From contig JANQIE010000185.1 of assembly GCA_028282295.1 (NCBI GenBank), positions 1 through 41,782 of the forward strand: a stretch of DNA of 41,782 nt. Direction: 5' to 3'. Source of the stretch: Desulfobacterales bacterium (GTDB lineage: Bacteria; Desulfobacterota; Desulfobacteria; Desulfobacterales; JANQIE01). Shown piece by piece: positions 3,965 through 13,073 of this stretch (positions are counted from its first letter, which is position 1; each line of letters starts with the position of its first letter). The notes beneath the pieces are model-generated. The model was not told the DNA's origin and searched no databases. It saw only the letters and a program-made list of their open reading frames with translations. Position numbers and translations under genes: made by a program.

Positions 3965-5503
3965 TTAGTTCTCCATGAACGCTTGATAAGCGGTGGGCAG
4001 CTCGATGATAAAGGTTGTGCCTTCGCCGGGTTTACTTTCAAAAGAAAACGCCCCGCCCTGCCGTTTGATGATCTGGTGCGATATGCTCAACCCCAGCCCG
4101 GTGCCGGTGGCTTTGGTCGTAAAGAAAGGGTTGAAGACATCCTCCTGGTGCTCAGACTTGATACCCGGCCCGGTATCACGAACTTTCAAAAATACAGCTT
4201 CCTTGGCATCACTAAGTGATGAGGCACCCATGGAAGTCAGAATTCTGATCAGCCCATTGTTCCCCATGGCTTCCATGGCATTGGCGACAACGTTGTTGAT
4301 GACCTGCTGCAACCCGATTACGTCGCCCTGGACGGGTATCAAGCCACTGGTCAACTCCAGTTTCAATTCCGTATTGGTCTCCCGTAATCTGGTCGACCAG
4401 AATTTGATGCTTTCCTTGACGAGAACATTCAGATCAATTTCATCCGGCGATTGCACCGGCGGCCGGGCAAAGTCCAGAACCCGTTTGATAATGCCTTCAA
4501 TGCGATTGATGCTCTCCTTTATTTCACCGAACAACTCTTTTTCCTGTGCCGTTCGTTTATATTTGTCTTCATCGCGCAGGATGTCGGTAAATAGATTGAT
4601 GCTGGCCAGCGGGTTCCTGATTTCGTGCGCGATACCACCGGACAACTGTCCCAATGAAGACAGGCGATACGCCCGGATCAGGTGTTCCTCCAGTTTTTTC
4701 TGCTCCGTGATATCGCTGATGCGGATGATTGCATTGCCTTCACCTTTGTCTTTGTCGTGCATGGGATAGATGACAACTTCTTCGATCCGGGACACATCTT
4801 TTAAGCCCTGCCGTTCGAACGTCATTGGTTTGCCGCTTTCAATGGCCACTTTGAAGTTGCAATGGCTGCACGGTTCCTGCCGGCCGGCCAGGATACGAAA
4901 GCAGGGCCTGCCGACAATATCCCGGAAGCGGGACGCCTGCGCGTATTCTTTGGCAGCCCGGTTCAGTACTTTTATCCGCATCTTGCGATTGAGCATGATC
5001 AACGGCTCGGAAATACCGTCGAAGACCGATTGCAACGTGGTTTTACTCTGCAAAAGTTTCTGATCGACTTTACGCCGTTCCTGGACTTCTTTCTTCAGTT
5101 CTTCAAACAGTTTCTGGTTTTCAATGCGCAATTTGCGTTTTTCAAGCGCACGCTTGACGGTGATAAGCAGATCGTCGATCTGAATAAGGGGCTTGGTGAG
5201 ATAATCAAAGGCACCGTCTTCTTTCAGGGCTTTGACGGCGTTTTCAAAGGACGCGTTACCGGTCAGGATGACTACTTCGATATTCGGGTCGAAGCGTTTA
5301 ATCCGCCGCAGGACCTCCAACCCGTTTATCCCGGGCATGGTCATATCGGTGATGGCCAACCCGATCGGCCGGGTGTTCATCAATTCCATTGCCTCTTCAC
5401 CGTTGCCGGCCCGGAAAACCCGGTAGTTTTCGGCGGTCAACAGCGTATCGAGCATTGTCAGAATGTCCGGATCATCGTCTATGAGTAAAATATTGTCGGT
5501 CAT
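3965..5503 (-). CDS. Hybrid sensor histidine kinase: REC - PAS - HisKA - HATPase
   Basis: The 512-residue soluble protein has an N-terminal receiver domain (Asp53), a coiled linker, a PAS domain at about 155-265, a dimerisation/phosphotransfer domain with His293 in AHEIRNPLASI, and an ATPase domain with N box, VRDTGPGIKSE and [10 protein letters not shown]. The PAS domain carries three cysteines (Cys201, Cys212, Cys215) in a C-x10-C-x2-C arrangement that could bind a metal, heme or Fe-S cofactor; this is inference. An N-terminal receiver on a kinase suggests it is itself controlled by another kinase, possibly the membrane kinase upstream. The ATG at 5503 follows a GGTGA sequence; a GTG three codons earlier (5512) is possible. 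It is one base away from the NtrC-type regulator, its probable partner. Confidence 0.92.
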   Translation of the reverse strand: MTDNILLIDDDPDILTMLDTLLTAENYRVFRAGNGEEAMELMNTRPIGLAITDMTMPGINGLEVLRRIKRFDPNIEVVILTGNASFENAVKALKEDGAFDYLTKPLIQIDDLLITVKRALEKRKLRIENQKLFEELKKEVQERRKVDQKLLQSKTTLQSVFDGISEPLIMLNRKMRIKVLNRAAKEYAQASRFRDIVGRPCFRILAGRQEPCSHCNFKVAIESGKPMTFERQGLKDVSRIEEVVIYPMHDKDKGEGNAIIRISDITEQKKLEEHLIRAYRLSSLGQLSGGIAHEIRNPLASINLFTDILRDEDKYKRTAQEKELFGEIKESINRIEGIIKRVLDFARPPVQSPDEIDLNVLVKESIKFWSTRLRETNTELKLELTSGLIPVQGDVIGLQQVINNVVANAMEAMGNNGLIRILTSMGASSLSDAKEAVFLKVRDTGPGIKSEHQEDVFNPFFTTKATGTGLGLSISHQIIKRQGGAFSFESKPGEGTTFIIELPTAYQAFMEN

Positions 5504-5846
5504 TGCATTCACCGCAACGCCCAGCCTTTATCTGTTTCGGTAAGGCGGCATGTTAGATAATATGCTTGAATTATTCGTTTTTTTGAGATTGATCACTTTA
5601 GCCCGCAAATGGGTTCTCACGTGATTAATATCGGTCCTAAAGTCAAAACCTTTACATTTAAAAAACACCCCTTTTGCCCGGTTACGCGGCCAATGCGCGT
5701 GTTCGGGCCGATTGGGATGCGCCTTCGTGGCAATAGCGAATCCTTTGCGGTGTGAGGGATTTTTGCGCGAGCCCTAAGGGCCGCAAAAAAAATAAATTAT
5801 CCCAAGTACGGATGTATTTTGGGATATTTTATTTTTTTTTGCGACC
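5504..5846. other. Intergenic spacer between kinase and diguanylate cyclase genes
   Basis: No gene is seen. It contains the third copy of the TTTTTGCGCGAGCCCTAA motif (5759-5776) directly next to a long A/T-rich inverted repeat (5778-5847) that acts as a terminator for the cyclase gene. The rest, about 5513-5750, is where a separate promoter for the REC-PAS kinase/NtrC pair would lie; I found no clear consensus. Confidence 0.5.
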
Positions 5847-5847
5847 C
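5778..5847 (-). terminator. Intrinsic terminator, probably bidirectional
   Basis: Two arms (5778-5804 and 5820-5847) are nearly perfect inverted copies, GGGYCGC followed by an A tract and TATCCCA. Read on the minus strand, a TATCCCA/TGGGATA stem is followed by a long T-rich tract, immediately after the TAG stop of the diguanylate cyclase gene. The plus strand shows the same pattern. Confidence 0.7.
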
Positions 5848-6788
5848 TAATTTGTTGTCGCATTGGAAGGGTCGTTCGAATTTGTCGGTGGCGGTTCGTT
5901 GCGGTGTTTACCGGCGTCCTTGGCCTTGGCCAGTGATTTGTTGGCCGCTTTGATCAGATCGGTTTTGTCCAGGGCATCCTGCGGATAAAACGCCCCGCCC
6001 ATGCTGACGGAAATTTTGTCATGCCGGTCCTCATACGTAAACGAATAGTTGTGGATGCGCGTCATTAAACGCTCGATCACGCCGGCGATTTCTTCTTTGG
6101 AGATCTCGTTCATGATAATCAGGAACTCTTCACCGCCGTAACGAAATATCCGATCGCTGGCGCGCAACTCACTCTGGATGACACCACTTAAACTGGTGAG
6201 TACGTGGTCGCCGAAAAGATGGCCATGGGTTTCGTTGATGTTTTTAAATTGATCGATATCCAGGACCAAAACAAAAAAGGTGCGCCCATACCGGTTAGAC
6301 AGCTCAATTTCCTGATCAAGGCAATTTTGCAAGTAGCGATAATTATACAGTCCGGTCAACGGGTCCTTGATTGACAGCTCCTCCAATTGCTGGATCAGGC
6401 AGCGGTTGCTGATTTCGAGTTTTCTTTTTTCAATCACCCGGTGAACGGCGTTCAAAAGGACGTCGATGTCTTCCAGCGGTTTACGGAAATAGTCATAGGC
6501 GCCGTGACGCAGGCAATCGATCGCCGTGGCTTCGTCGCTGTGCCCGGTGAGGATAATTACATCCGTGTTCGCTTCCTTGGTCTTGACTTCACGCAACACT
6601 TCGATGCCGTCCATGACCGGCATGCGGATGTCGGTAATGATCAAGCCCGGATCAAATTCCTGAAACCGTTCAATCCCTTCCCTGCCGTTGCTTGCGGTTA
6701 CGATCTGGTAACCTTCGTTTTTCAGCAGATTGGATAAAAGGTTTACGATATCTTGCTCATCATCGATGATTAGAATAATTTCACGCAT
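5847..6788 (-). CDS. Response regulator diguanylate cyclase (REC-GGDEF)
   Basis: The 313-residue protein has a receiver domain at 1-120 (Asp53 in IITDIRMP, Lys103 in FRKP) and a GGDEF domain at about 137-300. The active-site signature is GGEEF (218-222). Five residues before it is an intact RxxD inhibitory site (RASD, 209-212), so product inhibition by c-di-GMP is expected. DIDQFKNINETHGH supplies the metal and GTP-binding residues. The protein should make c-di-GMP from two GTP when phosphorylated. It lies 33 bp downstream of the membrane histidine kinase, its likely phosphodonor, and ends in a strong terminator. The C-terminal tail is low-complexity (Pro, Asn, Thr). PleD/WspR-like in architecture, but no gene symbol is assigned. 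Confidence 0.95.
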   Translation of the reverse strand: MREIILIIDDEQDIVNLLSNLLKNEGYQIVTASNGREGIERFQEFDPGLIITDIRMPVMDGIEVLREVKTKEANTDVIILTGHSDEATAIDCLRHGAYDYFRKPLEDIDVLLNAVHRVIEKRKLEISNRCLIQQLEELSIKDPLTGLYNYRYLQNCLDQEIELSNRYGRTFFVLVLDIDQFKNINETHGHLFGDHVLTSLSGVIQSELRASDRIFRYGGEEFLIIMNEISKEEIAGVIERLMTRIHNYSFTYEDRHDKISVSMGGAFYPQDALDKTDLIKAANKSLAKAKDAGKHRNEPPPTNSNDPSNATTN

Positions 6789-6821: not shown

Positions 6822-8789
6822 TCAGGCAGCGGTTTGGGCGGTCGAGTCCGTAGATTTGTTCGCAACTTTAAGTTGCGCAATGGGCAGTTTTATCTTAAAT
6901 GTCGTGCCTTGCGGTCCGGTTTCGGCGATTTCAATTTTACCATGATGGTCGTTGATAATGCCGTAACTGATCGAAAGCCCCAATCCCGTTCCCTTGCCGA
7001 CTTCTTTGGTGGTAAAGAACGGGTCGAAAATATTTTCCCGATCGGCTTTGGCGATCCCACCGCCGGTGTCCTTGATAACAATCTCGATTTGCTCGTTATT
7101 GGGCGACGAGCACCGGGTTGTAATCGCTATCGATTTTTCATAACCGTTTTGAGTATCTTCATTCGCAGCCCGTTCGTCAATAGCGTCCCGGGCATTGGTA
7201 ACCAAATTCAAAAATACCTGCTCCAACTGGTTGACGTCCCCTTCGATTTCGGGCAGTTCCGGATCGAGATTCTTTTCTATTTCAATGTTCCGCAGCCGCA
7301 ATTGTTCACCGATCATCAGGAAGGATTCATCGATCACGCTGTTGACATCCACCGGGAAAAACTCGGCTTTGGATTGGCGTGAAAATGTTCTAAGATGATT
7401 GATGATATTCATCATCCTTTCCGTGTTGCGCTCGATCGGTTCGATCTGGGCCTTGAAGTTGTCAATGGTTAAATTACCCTTGGCAATAAAGCGTTGGATC
7501 AATTGGGCGTTGCCGCGGATGACCATCAAGGGCTGGTTTAATTCATGGGCCACCCCGGCGGCCAGTTCCCCGATGGACGCCAGCTTGCCCGATTGCACAA
7601 GTTGAGCCTGGGTGCGTTTAAGTTTTTGATAGGCTTCTTTGAGCGACTCTTCGGCGTGATAGCGGTCGGTGACATCGCGGATGATGCCGCGAAATCCGGT
7701 GGGCAGCCCCTCCGCATTCTTGATCAAGGATACGGAAGCCTCCATGAACCGCTTGGTTCCGTCATTGCGTACAATTTTCCAATCGAATTCGCGTGACGGT
7801 TTATGTGAAACATAGACCTTGTTAAAAACATGAAAGATACTGCCGGCATCGGTGGTATCGGTAAAACTGCGATAGTGTTTGCCGACAAGATCATCGCGGC
7901 TGTACCCGGTTATCTTGGAAAATGCCAAATTGAAAAATTTCAATTTCCCGGAAGTATCAAATTCGTAATAGCCCTCTTCCATGTTTTCCAGAATATTGCG
8001 GTATTTCTCCTCACTTTCGCGCAGATGCTCCTCGGCGCGATTACGCTCCATTATTTCCTGTTTCAGGATTTTGTTCGCGCGCAACAACTGCCCGGTTCTT
8101 TCTTCCACCTTTGATTCAAGCTCCAGATTGGCCTGGTATACTTTTTCCTGCTCGGCTTCCAGCAGCCGGGCCTGGATAAATTGCCGGCGTGAATACAGTT
8201 CAATTGAATAGCAGGCAAAAATGCCGAACAGATTCCCGGTTAAAAAGAAAAAGTTGTTGTTGATCAACCTGGGCAGGGGGGTATGATTAATCCAAATGGC
8301 GGCGATCTCATAGCCGACGACAATCAAAAAACCGGCCGCGGTGGCATACAAAAAATCAAGTTTAAAAAAAGTATAACCAAAAATAAACACGAGAATCAAC
8401 CCGGCATAGTAGGAACTGTTGCCGGGATAAGGGGAGATCATGATCATCGCGATAATGCCCAGCCCCGCTATCAGCACGACAAAGGCGATGCAGATCTGCA
8501 TATATTTTTGGAAATTCTTTTTAAAGGAGAATAAAAAGACGGCAAGCGCAAAGGGAGAAAAAATGGCATAGCGGATAAACCAGAGGCGATACTTGGCCTC
8601 GGGCACGATCCATGCGTCAAGAATGCCGAACACGCCGAAAAACACGATCGACAGCAGCAGGGCGATTCTTACATGACGTAACGATTTTTCGAAATGCTCT
8701 TTTTTGTAGTATTTTTCTATGTCTTTGGGAAACGTCAGCGTAAACAGGTTTAAATCCACACGCTCCCATGATGTCTTCGTATCAGTCAT
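6822..8789 (-). CDS. Membrane histidine kinase: six-helix sensor - PAS - HisKA - HATPase
   Basis: The 655-residue protein has about six N-terminal membrane helices (roughly 41-60, 71-90, 97-118, 124-142, 146-166, 178-199), a coiled coil (about 203-260), a PAS domain (about 260-380), a phosphotransfer domain with His415 in [10 protein letters not shown], and an ATPase domain with [16 protein letters not shown] and [10 protein letters not shown]. The sensor region shares DxxIVP, SSYYAGL and LINN-x-FFL with the PP2C phosphatase encoded just upstream, so the two appear to use the same membrane input module. No receiver domain is attached; the REC-GGDEF protein 33 bp downstream is the obvious target. 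AGAGAT precedes the ATG. The ligand is unknown; the near absence of a periplasmic loop suggests a signal in the membrane or a small lipophilic molecule (inference). Confidence 0.93.
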
Positions 8790-8834: not shown

Positions 8835-10190
8835 TTATTTCTTGATAACCACCAGGGTGATGTCGTCATTTTGTTCTTCCTGAAAAGCCATCACATCGCT
8901 GATAATTTTATCGCGCATTTTGACGACGGGCAAGTGCGCATATTTATTCAGAACTTGCTCAAGTTGCTCTTGACCATACATCTCACCGGCTTTGTTGACC
9001 GCCTCGGTAATACCATCCGTGAACAATAAAACGATATCGCCGTTATCAAGGGTTATGTTGACGTCGACTAAATTGCTCTTGATGTTGTCGGTAATGCCCA
9101 ACCACGTACCGGGCACCGTTACGGTCTCAATGCGGTTTGAAGCCGCGCGGTAAATCAAAAGATCCTGGTGTTTGCCGGCAACTGTTATATTGGATTTGCT
9201 CAGCCGCAATGCCATCATGGTCATGTAGTGGTCGGACCCCAGCCGCGACAGGTTTTCCCGCAAGACCTCGTTCACGGCGCACAGGATATCCGACGGATTG
9301 CAATAGCCGTTGTTGCCGACTTTGGAAAGAATGCTGGTCTGGGCCATCATCATAATCAACCCCGAGTCAAGGCCATGACCGGAAACGTCCCCGATTGTCA
9401 CCCATTTGTTGCCGTGACCCGACTCGATTATATCGTAATAGTCACCGCCGACTTCTTTGGCCGGCAGCATCGTGGCGGCAATGTCGTACCCTTTGATTTT
9501 CTGTCGATTCGGCAAGAGTGCGGTCTGGATTCGTTTGGCCAGTTCCATCTCGCTCCAGATCGAGTCACGTGCCGTTTTGAGCTCGCACATCAGATAGAAT
9601 TCTTTCTTGATCAACAGATGTTTCACATAGTTGATGCTCACGGCGATTATACTTGTGGCACTTAGAAAAAAGAGATTATTAATCAAGACCGGCGAAACCG
9701 GTTGATGGTTCGAGTATTGATTCAACATGACGTACATCACGATGATAATCATGCTGTTAAATGCACTGTGAACCGCCCGCCAGGGCAAAAGCAGGTTGAC
9801 ACCGATAATGACGAGATTCAAGCCGGCATAGTAACTGGAGTCGAAGCCGCCCAGATCGACAGTCATCAGCACAATCACACCACCGACAACGATCGACACG
9901 ATATAACCGTGGATCAATGAAAATTGAGTCGGCCGGGTGGTCTTGATGATGAAGTACTGGGCAATAACGATCAGTGTGGCGATCAGACGATAGATCCCGA
10001 CCTGTTTTAATAACTCCTTGGGTACAATAAAATAGTCCAGAATGAAAAAAAGCGGCACCAGGGAGATTACCAGAAACGTGAGGGTCTTGAGCCAGTCGTG
10101 AATAATGTCGTTCAGGAACTGATCAAAATCCTTGGAGTCGATAATCGCCTGTTTTTCAACGCTCAGTATTTCGTGCTTCGGACTGTTCAT
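8835..10190 (-). CDS. Membrane SpoIIE/RsbU-type PP2C phosphatase
   Basis: The 451-residue protein has about six membrane helices (35-185) followed by a linker and a SpoIIE-type serine phosphatase domain (about 215-450). The metal-binding motifs are present: EVGGDYYD (246-253), GDVSGHG (267-273), LLFTDGITEA and DDITLVVIK at the end. In partner-switching systems such enzymes dephosphorylate a STAS-domain protein; here that would be the STAS-type product of 12197-12568. The start at 10190 (MNSPKHE) is chosen because it matches the start of the duplicated copy at 10773 (MHSPKNN) and follows a purine-rich stretch; a longer version would start with TTG inside duplicated sequence. The gene lies 45 bp upstream of the membrane kinase, with which it shares its sensor module. 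Confidence 0.92.
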   Translation of the reverse strand: MNSPKHEILSVEKQAIIDSKDFDQFLNDIIHDWLKTLTFLVISLVPLFFILDYFIVPKELLKQVGIYRLIATLIVIAQYFIIKTTRPTQFSLIHGYIVSIVVGGVIVLMTVDLGGFDSSYYAGLNLVIIGVNLLLPWRAVHSAFNSMIIIVMYVMLNQYSNHQPVSPVLINNLFFLSATSIIAVSINYVKHLLIKKEFYLMCELKTARDSIWSEMELAKRIQTALLPNRQKIKGYDIAATMLPAKEVGGDYYDIIESGHGNKWVTIGDVSGHGLDSGLIMMMAQTSILSKVGNNGYCNPSDILCAVNEVLRENLSRLGSDHYMTMMALRLSKSNITVAGKHQDLLIYRAASNRIETVTVPGTWLGITDNIKSNLVDVNITLDNGDIVLLFTDGITEAVNKAGEMYGQEQLEQVLNKYAHLPVVKMRDKIISDVMAFQEEQNDDITLVVIKK

Positions 10191-10860
10191 TTTCTTTTCT
10201 TTAGGACTAACCCACAAGTGTATTTTTCAGATGAAAAAACATTTGATTGCCGGTATCTTCAAAATCAGGCTCGGGTTGGGACGCTTGATGATCTGCACAC
10301 CGAGCCAGCACCGCGTTCATCCGGGCAACGATAAGCCTGTTAATCGCGCGATGAATTGCCCACCAGGGCAAAAGCAGGTTAACACCGATAAATACGAGAT
10401 TCAATGCGATATAGTAACTTGAATTAAAACCGCTTAGGTTAACTGTCATTAACACGATCACGCTACCGACGACAATCGATACAATGTAGCCATGAAGCAA
10501 CGAAAACCGGGACGGCCGGATGGTTCGAATGATGAAATACTGAACAATTACAATCAGCGCCCCCAACAGACGGTAGAACCCGACCCACGCCAACAATTCC
10601 CTGGGTACGAAATAATAGTCCAGAAAAAAGAAAAGGGGCACCAGCGATATCAACAGAATCGTGAGGGTCCTGAGCCAATCATGAACAATCCCGTTTACGA
10701 TCTGGTCCAGATCCCCGGAGCTTATAGGCGTCTGTTGTTTAATGCCCGGCTTATTGTTTTTCGGACTATGCATATTCTCTGCTTTGCTTATTTTTTAGTA
10801 AGTGTATTTTTAACATGCAGAAACATTTGATTACCGGTATCTTCGAAACTGATCCTGGTC
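9757..10860. repeat. Diverged tandem duplication, period about 583 bp
   Basis: Two copies, about 9757-10280 and 10340-10860, align with a constant offset of 583-584. Examples are CAGGGCAAAAGCAGGTT at 9781 and 10364, the start codons at 10190 and 10773, and AGTGTATTTTT at 10217 and 10801. Each copy spans the end of the methyltransferase gene, the spacer, and the first half of the phosphatase gene. The copies have diverged but keep open reading frames. Confidence 0.85.
10207..10773 (-). CDS. Chimeric ORF: phosphatase sensor half fused to methyltransferase tail
   Basis: The 188-residue product starts with the same membrane module as the downstream phosphatase (for example SLVPLFF, DYYFVPRELL, LLHGYIVSIVVGSVIVLMTV, SSYYIALNLVFIGVNLLLPW) but breaks off after about four helices. 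It ends with FEDTGNQMFFHLKNTLVG, almost the same as the last residues of the methyltransferase (FEDTGNQMFLHVKNTLTKK). This is what the junction of a tandem duplication would encode. No enzyme domain is left. It may be a dying remnant, or a retained membrane protein that could dimerise with the phosphatase or kinase sensor; the open frame despite clear divergence hints at retention but does not prove it. It lies 14 bp after the methyltransferase gene. Confidence 0.6.
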   Translation of the reverse strand: MHSPKNNKPGIKQQTPISSGDLDQIVNGIVHDWLRTLTILLISLVPLFFFLDYYFVPRELLAWVGFYRLLGALIVIVQYFIIRTIRPSRFSLLHGYIVSIVVGSVIVLMTVNLSGFNSSYYIALNLVFIGVNLLLPWWAIHRAINRLIVARMNAVLARCADHQASQPEPDFEDTGNQMFFHLKNTLVG

Positions 10861-12194
10861 TCGGCAGACGGCACACCTTTCAATAAATCCAGAAACTCCT
10901 GTTCGGTACGATAGAAAAGCACCCAATCCAGCCAATACTCCATGTAAAACCGGCTGGAATTGGAAATATGAAAATTACCGACAACCATTTCACCGCCCGG
11001 TTTCAGGATCTGGTACAGTTTTTCAATTACCGCCTTGGCCACTGGCGGGGTCAGGTAGTCGAACAAGCCCATGGAGTAGATGTAGTCAAACTCGCCCCAC
11101 ATTTTATTCAATTTCGGTGTTGCCAGCATTGTGCGCACCGACTCATTTAAATAGTCGACTTCGATTTTGGTGTCGAACTTCTTCTCAATTTGTGCGATCA
11201 GCACTTTGGCTTCATCAAGTGCTTTTTCATCCTGGTCAAGAAGTGTAAAATGGAATTTAGCGCAGTCACGCGGCGACTTGAGCACGTCGTTAAGTTCAAA
11301 CGCCGGTCCGCAGGCTGCGGACAACACCTTGATTTTTTTTGAAGTACCGGTTTTAGCGCTTTGCTTGTAGTGATTCAGGATTTTACCGATCATCCGGCGA
11401 CGGTTGCGAACCGCTTGAGCCGCGGGATGTTCGATGGGATGCTTATGCATCAGCTTGGCAAAGGTCGAATCACCCATGTAGTCATTATCGTAGATCATGC
11501 GCATCATGATCGAATCGCCGCTATAATTGCGGGGCTTCAGGTTGGTACGGGCCATAAACGGCGCGCACACGATGAAGTCCCACAACTGCCGGCGCAGGTA
11601 GTAGCCGTGCCGCTCATGTTCTTTTCTGCTATAGCTGATAACTATGCTCTCAAAATCCCGCAATTTGTTATCCATAAAGCGCATGAATTTGCGCCCTTCA
11701 TTTTCGATAATCGTCCGTTGGATAACAGCTTTGACGGTATCCGGCTCGTTAGTGTACTTTGCATCCAGGGAGTCGAATAGATTTTTATATACACTCAAAT
11801 CATAAGTTAAATTGGCCGTATATTCCTTAAACTCTTTTTTAATTTTATCTTTATGCGTCAGGATCAACGCGAGATTGAAAAAATCCGACTGGAGTTTTTC
11901 GAGTTTGTTTTCAAAGAACAAACTGTCAAGATCGTAAATATCCTTGCTGAAAATCAAGCGTCCCAACCTGCCGTTGTCTCCGGAGGGGACAATGTACTGA
12001 CAAGGGCCGACCGCTATCTCTTCGCCGTTCTTTTTGAATACCATTTTTTTGAAACGCGAACCATTGTCGGTTTTCACGCCGTTGACAAATTTTACCTTCA
12101 ATGAATAGCGTGACGAATAGATCGCTTCGATGGGAATATTTCGTGATTCCGACACCAAATTTGCCTTGAATACAGGTGCATTATGTTTCGACAT
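10788..12194 (-). CDS. SAM-dependent methyltransferase with unusual N-terminal half
   Basis: The 468-residue protein has a class I methyltransferase domain at about 285-465: a motif-I-like VLSAACGPAFEL (290-301), acidic Asp320 at the end of strand 2 (TLLDQDEKALDEA), FDYIYSMGLFDYL (369-381) and LKPGGEMVVGNF (397-408). The first ~100 residues look like a small beta-rich domain (IEAIYSSRYSLKVKF, GPCQYIV, GRLIFSKDIYDL), perhaps PilZ-like, but the c-di-GMP-binding RxxxR and DxSxxG motifs are not visible. A helical, charged linker (100-200) follows. The substrate is not known; the CGPAFEL type recalls enzymes annotated as making fatty-acid methyl-ester signals (PhcB-like), which is only a suggestion. 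The gene starts two bases after the STAS gene stop, with GAGGGG as ribosome site, so it is probably the output of the partner-switching pair. Confidence 0.75.
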   Translation of the reverse strand: MSKHNAPVFKANLVSESRNIPIEAIYSSRYSLKVKFVNGVKTDNGSRFKKMVFKKNGEEIAVGPCQYIVPSGDNGRLGRLIFSKDIYDLDSLFFENKLEKLQSDFFNLALILTHKDKIKKEFKEYTANLTYDLSVYKNLFDSLDAKYTNEPDTVKAVIQRTIIENEGRKFMRFMDNKLRDFESIVISYSRKEHERHGYYLRRQLWDFIVCAPFMARTNLKPRNYSGDSIMMRMIYDNDYMGDSTFAKLMHKHPIEHPAAQAVRNRRRMIGKILNHYKQSAKTGTSKKIKVLSAACGPAFELNDVLKSPRDCAKFHFTLLDQDEKALDEAKVLIAQIEKKFDTKIEVDYLNESVRTMLATPKLNKMWGEFDYIYSMGLFDYLTPPVAKAVIEKLYQILKPGGEMVVGNFHISNSSRFYMEYWLDWVLFYRTEQEFLDLLKGVPSAETRISFEDTGNQMFLHVKNTLTKK

Positions 12195-12196
12195 TA

Positions 12197-12568
12197 CTAT
12201 AACCCCTCAATTTCAAGTCGATTATCTTCGGTACTAAATATCTTTAAGGCGGAAAAACTCAATTCCTGCCATTTGGTTTTCTTTTGATAAAAGATTGAAA
12301 TTTTATTAACGCTTTTCCTGGCTCTTTCCAGAATCTTGATTATCGGTGTGACCGTCGAAGAATTCATGTACGTCAATTCCTGAAAGTCCATCACAATGCG
12401 TTTATTTAAGGAATAGGCGGAATCCAGCACTTCAACCAGGATCGGCGATATAAACTTGCTCGGTTCGCGATCAATGCTTTTGCCTTTCCAAATCACTTTG
12501 ATCGAAGTGTCGTTTTCGTCCACGGTGATCGTTAAATGGGTAGATGCATGCACTTTTTGTTTTGACAT
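12197..12568 (-). CDS. STAS-type partner-switching protein (anti-sigma antagonist or SiaC-like)
   Basis: The 123-residue soluble protein has the shape of a STAS domain: alternating strands and helices with the key loop VMDFQELTYMNSSTVTPIIKIL (59-80). Ser70, Ser71 or Thr72 would be the phosphorylation site, equivalent to the DSSG serine of SpoIIAA/RsbV. The next helix and strand (SVNKISIFYQ) fit the fold. The start at 12568 (MSKQKV) follows AGGAAAG; eight extra upstream codons are possible. It is 13 bp downstream of the GHKL kinase gene and 2 bp upstream of the methyltransferase gene. I infer that the kinase phosphorylates it and the membrane phosphatase reverses this. The methyltransferase could be the regulated target. 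Confidence 0.75.
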   Translation of the reverse strand: MSKQKVHASTHLTITVDENDTSIKVIWKGKSIDREPSKFISPILVEVLDSAYSLNKRIVMDFQELTYMNSSTVTPIIKILERARKSVNKISIFYQKKTKWQELSFSALKIFSTEDNRLEIEGL

Positions 12569-12581
12569 TTTCTTTCCTATT

Positions 12582-13073
12582 CTAGGTTTCAATATTTGAA
12601 ACTACGGATACATTTAACATATTGTTTTCACTTACAAAAAAATCGAGCAGGGCCTTGCCTTCGTATGCAATGCGCACCAGGCCGATGCCACTTTCGGTAT
12701 CAAAAATCGGTTTTTTGGACACCTCCTTCAACCGCTCGATGTAAGCTTCAAACGGATCTTGATAGCCGCGAATCCATTGAATCATTTTATCCAGTCGCAC
12801 CAGATGCGGTTGCGCACCACCGTCAACGGGATTGAATACTTCAATGGTAACATTGCGGCTTTCAATCTTTATGGTCACCACGATCTTATTTTCGATTAGT
12901 TTGAAATCACCGTATTTAAGGCCGTTTTCGATAAGTTCGCTGATGATCATCGATAACGAATGAACCGTATCATCCGAGAATCGATGCGACTGCAAGAAGT
13001 CGACACTCTGATTCCTGATTTTTTCGATTTCATCCCAATCCGGTTCTACATTGAATTCGATTGAATTCTTCAT
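12582..13073 (-). CDS. GHKL anti-sigma-type serine kinase (HATPase_c_2-like)
   Basis: The 163-residue soluble protein shows the ATPase N box SELIENGLKYGD (45-56), a VFNP strand (79-82) and a C-terminal SGIGLVRIAYEG (128-139) that resembles the G2 lid of anti-sigma kinases such as SpoIIAB/RsbW. There is no histidine phosphotransfer domain, which argues for a serine kinase acting on a STAS partner. The start at 13073 (MKNSIEFN) lies 12 bases after AAAGGAG; a longer form of 25 extra residues is possible but has no better ribosome site. It is the first gene of the minus-strand array, so the operon promoter should lie just upstream (13074-13250). No clear promoter was recognised there; a TATACT hexamer occurs at about 13161-13166 (minus strand) without a good -35. 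Confidence 0.8.
   Translation of the reverse strand: MKNSIEFNVEPDWDEIEKIRNQSVDFLQSHRFSDDTVHSLSMIISELIENGLKYGDFKLIENKIVVTIKIESRNVTIEVFNPVDGGAQPHLVRLDKMIQWIRGYQDPFEAYIERLKEVSKKPIFDTESGIGLVRIAYEGKALLDFFVSENNMLNVSVVSNIET

Follow-up and report, generated by a model that had tools for sequence, protein, structure and literature searches.

The window, as the whole stretch of 41,782 nucleotides of Desulfobacterales DNA analysed here is called, contains a real and conserved operon in which a synthase and receptor pair like that of the Phc quorum-sensing system is joined to a partner switch like that of the Sia system. It is this joining that appears to be new, both kinds of component being already known. 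The locus may be a cell-to-cell signalling module, in which a signal made by the methyltransferase (MT) reaches a membrane PP2C phosphatase and a histidine kinase (HK), with the STAS protein most likely feeding back on the MT; this reading is given about an even chance of being correct.

Gene organisation of the locus

The genes of the locus, in their order of transcription, are:

12582..13073, minus strand: GHKL serine kinase of the slr1658/SiaB (partner-switch) type; ATG at 13073, start placed according to the orthologs
12197..12592, minus strand: single-domain STAS phosphoprotein of the SiaC/slr1659 type; probable start at 12568
10788..12194, minus strand: PhcB-family SAM-dependent MT of 468 aa; proposed signal synthase
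10207..10773, minus strand: remnant (scar) ORF, an MT/PP2C chimera, between the MT and PP2C genes
8835..10217, minus strand: membrane PP2C phosphatase; probable start at 10190
6822..8789, minus strand: HK with the six-helix domain of the PP2C, PAS, HisKA and HATPase; PhcS-like receptor kinase
5847..6788, minus strand: response regulator with diguanylate cyclase domain (RR-GGDEF; GGDEF 5e-40, Response_reg 3e-31)
3965..5512, minus strand: receiver-PAS-histidine kinase (RR-PAS-HK), PhcR-like in architecture

A preliminary description of this DNA had recognised four genes on one strand, for the kinase, the STAS protein, the MT and the membrane PP2C. All four are present, on the minus strand, but the scar ORF was overlooked, as were the two-component genes downstream, where the run of genes on the same strand continues past the PP2C with the HK, then RR-GGDEF, then RR-PAS-HK. 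Only two bases separate the STAS stop codon from the MT gene. The cyclase domain of RR-GGDEF looks active, judging by its RASD I-site and GGEEF motif, and a homologue of RR-PAS-HK is retained in two other genomes (G246 and G262). Promoter and terminator scans of the locus found nothing beyond the level of shuffled sequence.

A complete partner switch of the Sia/Rsb type

The earlier reading of the kinase, STAS protein and PP2C as a complete partner switch is borne out, the motifs of all three being intact: SELIEN (the N-box) and SGIGL in the kinase, YMNSSTV in the STAS protein, of which NSST is invariant in 12 relatives, and GGDYYD, GDVSGHG and DDITL in the PP2C. The kinase and the STAS protein score best against the NCBIfam slr1658 and slr1659 superfamilies, under the cut-offs of these models (for the kinase, E 1e-11), and the STAS protein matches Pfam SiaC with 25.5 bits against a cut-off of 24.5. 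The PP2C matches Pfam SpoIIE with 114 bits (E 9e-33); its match to NCBIfam SiaA (E 3e-18) is far under the cut-off of that model.

In SiaABCD of Pseudomonas aeruginosa, unphosphorylated SiaC binds and activates SiaD, which is blocked by the kinase SiaB and restored by the phosphatase SiaA (PMC8457831). The window operon resembles this system in its GHKL kinase, in its SiaC-type STAS protein with an N-[ST]-S motif, where YMNSSTV matches Y65, N67, T68 and S69 of SiaC (PMC8457831), in having an enzyme gene that adjoins the STAS gene, and in its PP2C domain, for which the best structural match is SiaA-PP2C (6k4e, Z 26.3). It differs in that the STAS-adjacent enzyme is an MT rather than the stalked diguanylate cyclase SiaD, in that the GGDEF protein of the window has a receiver domain, and in the sensor of the phosphatase, which is a PhcS-like six-helix domain. 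With SpoIIA and Rsb the operon shares the logic of kinase, STAS protein and PP2C, but it contains no sigma factor. Indeed, as noted in the preliminary description, no sigma factor is encoded nearby, none being found among the eight operon and cluster genes scanned; an unlinked sigma factor could still be the target of the switch.

Conservation of the operon

Eight sampled genomes have an orthologous MT (E under 1e-150), and the order kinase-STAS-MT-PP2C is present in six of these: the window genome (G000), G246, G262, G119, G267 and G662. The remaining two are G221 and G573. The six genomes with the full order come from five families and include distantly related members of the phylum, and the operon proteins of the five other than the window genome are about 51-76% identical to those of the window. 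The association of the MT with the kinase and STAS genes, which had been seen in one sequence, is upheld by this recurrence. Across the sample of 291 genomes of the class, strong kinase matches (E under 1e-36) are found in exactly the six genomes of that sample that have an MT ortholog.

Weaker kinase-STAS pairs are present in seven genomes, without an MT of this type. The STAS gene adjoins a GAF and class III cyclase gene in two of these (G016 and G001), and in others there is a PP2C or GGDEF gene nearby; this family of switches thus teams with different enzymes. At the two cyclase loci (L166 and L167) there is also a PP2C gene, and each is probably a partner switch that controls the cyclase.

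The methyltransferase is a PhcB homologue

The MT has a beta-barrel (residues 8-82), a helical region (89-279) and a Rossmann core (288-463), in a structure model with a pLDDT of 86, and it is 54-68% identical to its orthologs in the class over the full length. Its ACGPAFE motif is intact. Against Pfam there are generic methyltransferase matches only, with a weak CheR-like score. Profile comparison by hhalign matches it to the PhcB group (P 100, E 2e-46, 292 columns), and it is 29% identical (E 2e-32) to a PhcB-type protein of Ralstonia pickettii. The locus of the latter (L105) has the order MT(470)-HK(442)-receiver+HK(368)-receiver(335), which agrees with the order phcB-phcS-phcR-phcQ published for Ralstonia, where PhcB is the synthase of a 3-hydroxy-fatty-acid methyl-ester quorum signal and PhcS its sensor (PMC8578825). 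In a tree of the MT family, the window MT groups with its orthologs in a clade of their own, outside that of PhcB. By sequence, the window MT is therefore a homologue of PhcB and not its ortholog, and because it falls outside the PhcB clade its substrate may differ from that of PhcB. The earlier suggestion that the MT produces a methylated small signal gains support from this homology. Neither the MT nor the STAS protein had a significant match in a sequence search of the PDB, and no relatives of the MT were found in the viral contigs searched.

The locus as a whole can be compared with the Phc system of Ralstonia and Cupriavidus (PhcB-PhcS-PhcR-PhcQ, with 3-OH PAME or 3-OH MAME as signal). 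It is alike in having a PhcB-family MT, a six-helix receptor on an HK, and a receiver-HK protein in the cluster, the product of 3965-5512 sharing the domain order of PhcR (architecture being what was compared). It is different in that the MT belongs to its own clade and has an N-terminal barrel of another kind, in that a PP2C bears the receptor domain as well, and in the presence of both a kinase-STAS switch and RR-GGDEF.

Homology between the N-terminal barrel of the MT and that of PhcB is undetectable (E 0.65). In other members of the MT family the place of the barrel is taken by a cNMP-binding or PilZ domain, and the site therefore looks regulatory. The nearest relatives of the window MT clade are in family f92 (L238-L243), which matches Pfam PilZ with 26.7 bits against a cut-off of 22.5; the f92 PilZ domain aligns weakly with the window MT barrel (E 1.5e-4, probability 51). 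The window clade has no c-di-GMP motif, and its barrel is not claimed here as a c-di-GMP sensor. The PilZ-domain MTs of f92 have no six-helix neighbour; the idea that their neighbours form a second partner switch was rejected, these being EF-G and MoaB genes. The window genome has a second MT-family protein (L002:452-2155, on G000:C226), which carries a cNMP-binding-like N-terminal domain, and in the stretch searched there is no six-helix gene beside it.

The six-helix membrane domain and its pairing with the methyltransferase family

The N-terminal halves of the PP2C and of the HK are the same six-helix domain of ~200 residues, which is also found in PhcS. In the PP2C this PhcS-like receptor domain (about aa 23-233) is followed by a SpoIIE/SiaA-type PP2C domain, and the structure model (pLDDT 90) has six membrane helices leading into the phosphatase; compared with PhcS by hhalign, the PP2C six-helix domain gives P 96 and E 3e-9. 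The domain contains a conserved SSYYAGL stretch. A distant relative with the same membrane fold is ImcA (8wcn) of P. aeruginosa, matched with a profile E of 9e-6 and Z 16.9; its output is a diguanylate cyclase, its control lies with the protein IsmP, and no lipid ligand is known for it.

A search for the six-helix domain in the 291 class genomes found it in 86, among them all 40 of the genomes that are positive for the MT family (Fisher 2e-25, with kinship ignored). At 39 of the 49 MT-family loci in these genomes there is a six-helix gene within 3 kb. The window genome has just three matches to the domain, the PP2C, the HK and the scar ORF, all of them in the cluster. The output domain of the six-helix partner is an HK in most cases, the PP2C here, HD-GYP in G274, G213, G105 and G090 among others, and GGDEF-EAL in Rhizobium. 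At least 4 changes of partner output can be placed on the MT tree, on which the HK labels of L014, L019 and L028, whose flanks ended short of the partner, were assigned manually. Outputs that change while synthase and membrane domain stay the same are what would be predicted for a signal and receptor pair.

Two further observations agree with such a pair. In the PP2C, conservation of the receptor domain equals or exceeds that of the phosphatase, with identities of 75/71, 78/72, 74/73 and 65/54% for the membrane and catalytic domains respectively (65-78% vs 54-73%). The HK of G221 has kept a six-helix domain that is 60% identical, with 28% identity in the PAS and 30% in the kinase domain. The stable core consists of the MT together with the membrane domain, and the partner switch can be lost from around it.

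Other arrangements were seen among the loci collected. At L165:5136-7900 (G221), a degenerate switch kinase adjoins a six-helix HK with an exchanged kinase part, with no STAS gene there. In L041, L044, L045, L046, L047 and L247, a cNBD-type MT is directly followed by a six-helix HD-GYP protein, possibly a module leading from quorum to c-di-GMP. On a plasmid of Rhizobium leguminosarum (L033:3832-7047), a divergent MT-family gene is beside that for a six-helix GGDEF-EAL protein, and the MT family matches 125 Rhizobium plasmid records.

A possible signalling circuit

What was observed directly is the set of homologies, the intact state of the motifs, the conservation of gene order and the MT/six-helix pairing. 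From these we infer a circuit, in which the substrate, the ligand, the signs of regulation and the binding of STAS to MT are supplied by analogy. The MT, given its homology to PhcB, would make a methylated signal of hydrophobic character, which is probably a 3-hydroxy-fatty-acid methyl ester or something related to it. The signal would enter the membrane and be bound there by the PP2C and the HK through their six-helix domains, as suggested by the pairing of these domains with the MT family and by their homology to PhcS. If the Sia/Rsb mechanism applies, the kinase would phosphorylate S78 of the STAS protein (in NSST), the PP2C would remove this phosphate, and ligand binding would alter the rate at which it does so. 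Unphosphorylated STAS protein would most likely then bind the MT and set its activity, as SiaC does with SiaD, to judge from the position of the genes, giving a feedback loop on signal production at the level of protein. Through the HK, the same signal may be passed to RR-GGDEF and RR-PAS-HK, with c-di-GMP as a second output.

Quorum sensing by methyl esters of the Phc type has been described in Ralstonia and its relatives, where the receptor is a histidine kinase. Should the circuit hold, the same kind of signal would be used in the phylum of the window, where part of its effect would run through a serine phosphatase that acts as receptor and drives a partner switch; elsewhere, a signal of the methyl-ester type would act through c-di-GMP phosphodiesterases. 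It would also supply an upstream cue for a partner switch and a testable class of ligand for a set of six-helix sensors. In open-access PMC, no paper was found in which a PhcB-type synthase is connected with either a PP2C or a partner switch. A more tentative proposal, held with clearly less than even confidence, is that a quorum-signal synthase is here the target of a switch whose phosphatase is the signal receptor, so that autoinduction would work by phosphorylation and not by transcription, and that synthase and six-helix domain are a plug-in pair for HK, PP2C, HD-GYP and GGDEF-EAL outputs.

Does the switch control the methyltransferase?

The preliminary description had taken the MT as the output of the switch. 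In favour of this are the SiaD-like slot of its gene beside that for a SiaC-type STAS protein, the GAF-cyclase genes similarly placed in G016 and G001, and a fusion in G573 (L216:6468-7862), where the kinase domain is joined in frame to the MT and replaces the N-terminal barrel. The kinase part of this fusion has no SGIGL box, and it may be a plain deletion between the kinase and MT genes. On the other side, the strongest partnership of the MT family is with the six-helix membrane receptor domain and not with STAS, and two genomes keep the MT without STAS, which would mean that the MT can do without it. One of these is G573, where no STAS gene was found, though the MT and a six-helix receptor remain. 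The other is G221, where no convincing STAS gene was found, there being one weak, unlinked match (E 1.5e-4); here the MT is kept at a different locus, the kinase is without the N-box Asn, and a six-helix HK is present but no six-helix PP2C was found. The MT of this genome gave no clear signal when inspected for relaxed regions, the helical region being without extra decay. Control of the MT by STAS is, given the stronger six-helix pairing and the two STAS-less genomes, plausible but unproven, resting on the SiaD-like position and the kinase-MT fusion, and the MT looks to be at least as much a source of input to the switch as its output.

It is possible, though somewhat doubtful, that synthase and receptors are as proposed but that the MT is constitutive and provides input only, with STAS controlling an unlinked protein, or with the switch and HK/RR-GGDEF as parallel outputs. 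Many genomes have the MT and six-helix pairing without kinase-STAS, and PhcB of Ralstonia functions without any switch (PMC8578825), both of which are consistent with such an arrangement, as is the retention of the MT in G221 and G573. It accounts less well for an MT gene two bases past that of STAS, for the exact co-occurrence with the kinase in the class sample and the G573 fusion, and for the fact that the operon has no other candidate target except RR-GGDEF, which has its own receiver.

That the MT methylates a protein or an internal metabolite, with no diffusible signal, and that the six-helix domains sense the state of the membrane, another lipid or a partner protein, is improbable. It would fit the position of the window MT outside the PhcB clade, its weak CheR-like score, and the control of six-helix relatives such as ImcA by protein partners. 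Against it, the MT has kept its link to one membrane domain while the output changed, as expected of synthase and receptor, and the characterised proteins of the two families respectively produce and detect a methyl ester. That unrelated regulators lie together here by chance, or that the cluster was created by the assembly, might be suspected of a genome in 326 contigs that is the sole sampled member of its family, but can hardly be reconciled with the recurrence of the gene order in six genomes, which belong to five families and include distant phylum members.

The scar ORF

The ORF between the MT and PP2C genes consists of a PP2C-type six-helix domain to which the final ~20 codons of an MT gene are attached. 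Over 512 bp it matches the MT 3' end and the 5' part of the PP2C gene at 73% nucleotide identity, from which it is read as the trace of an MT-PP2C unit that was duplicated in tandem and then collapsed by deletion. No such ORF is present in the orthologous operons. Compared with the PP2C, its dN/dS is about 0.19, which indicates purifying selection for much of its history. As it stands, the scar ORF is a free-standing six-helix domain, possibly a decoy receptor and possibly a decaying remnant.
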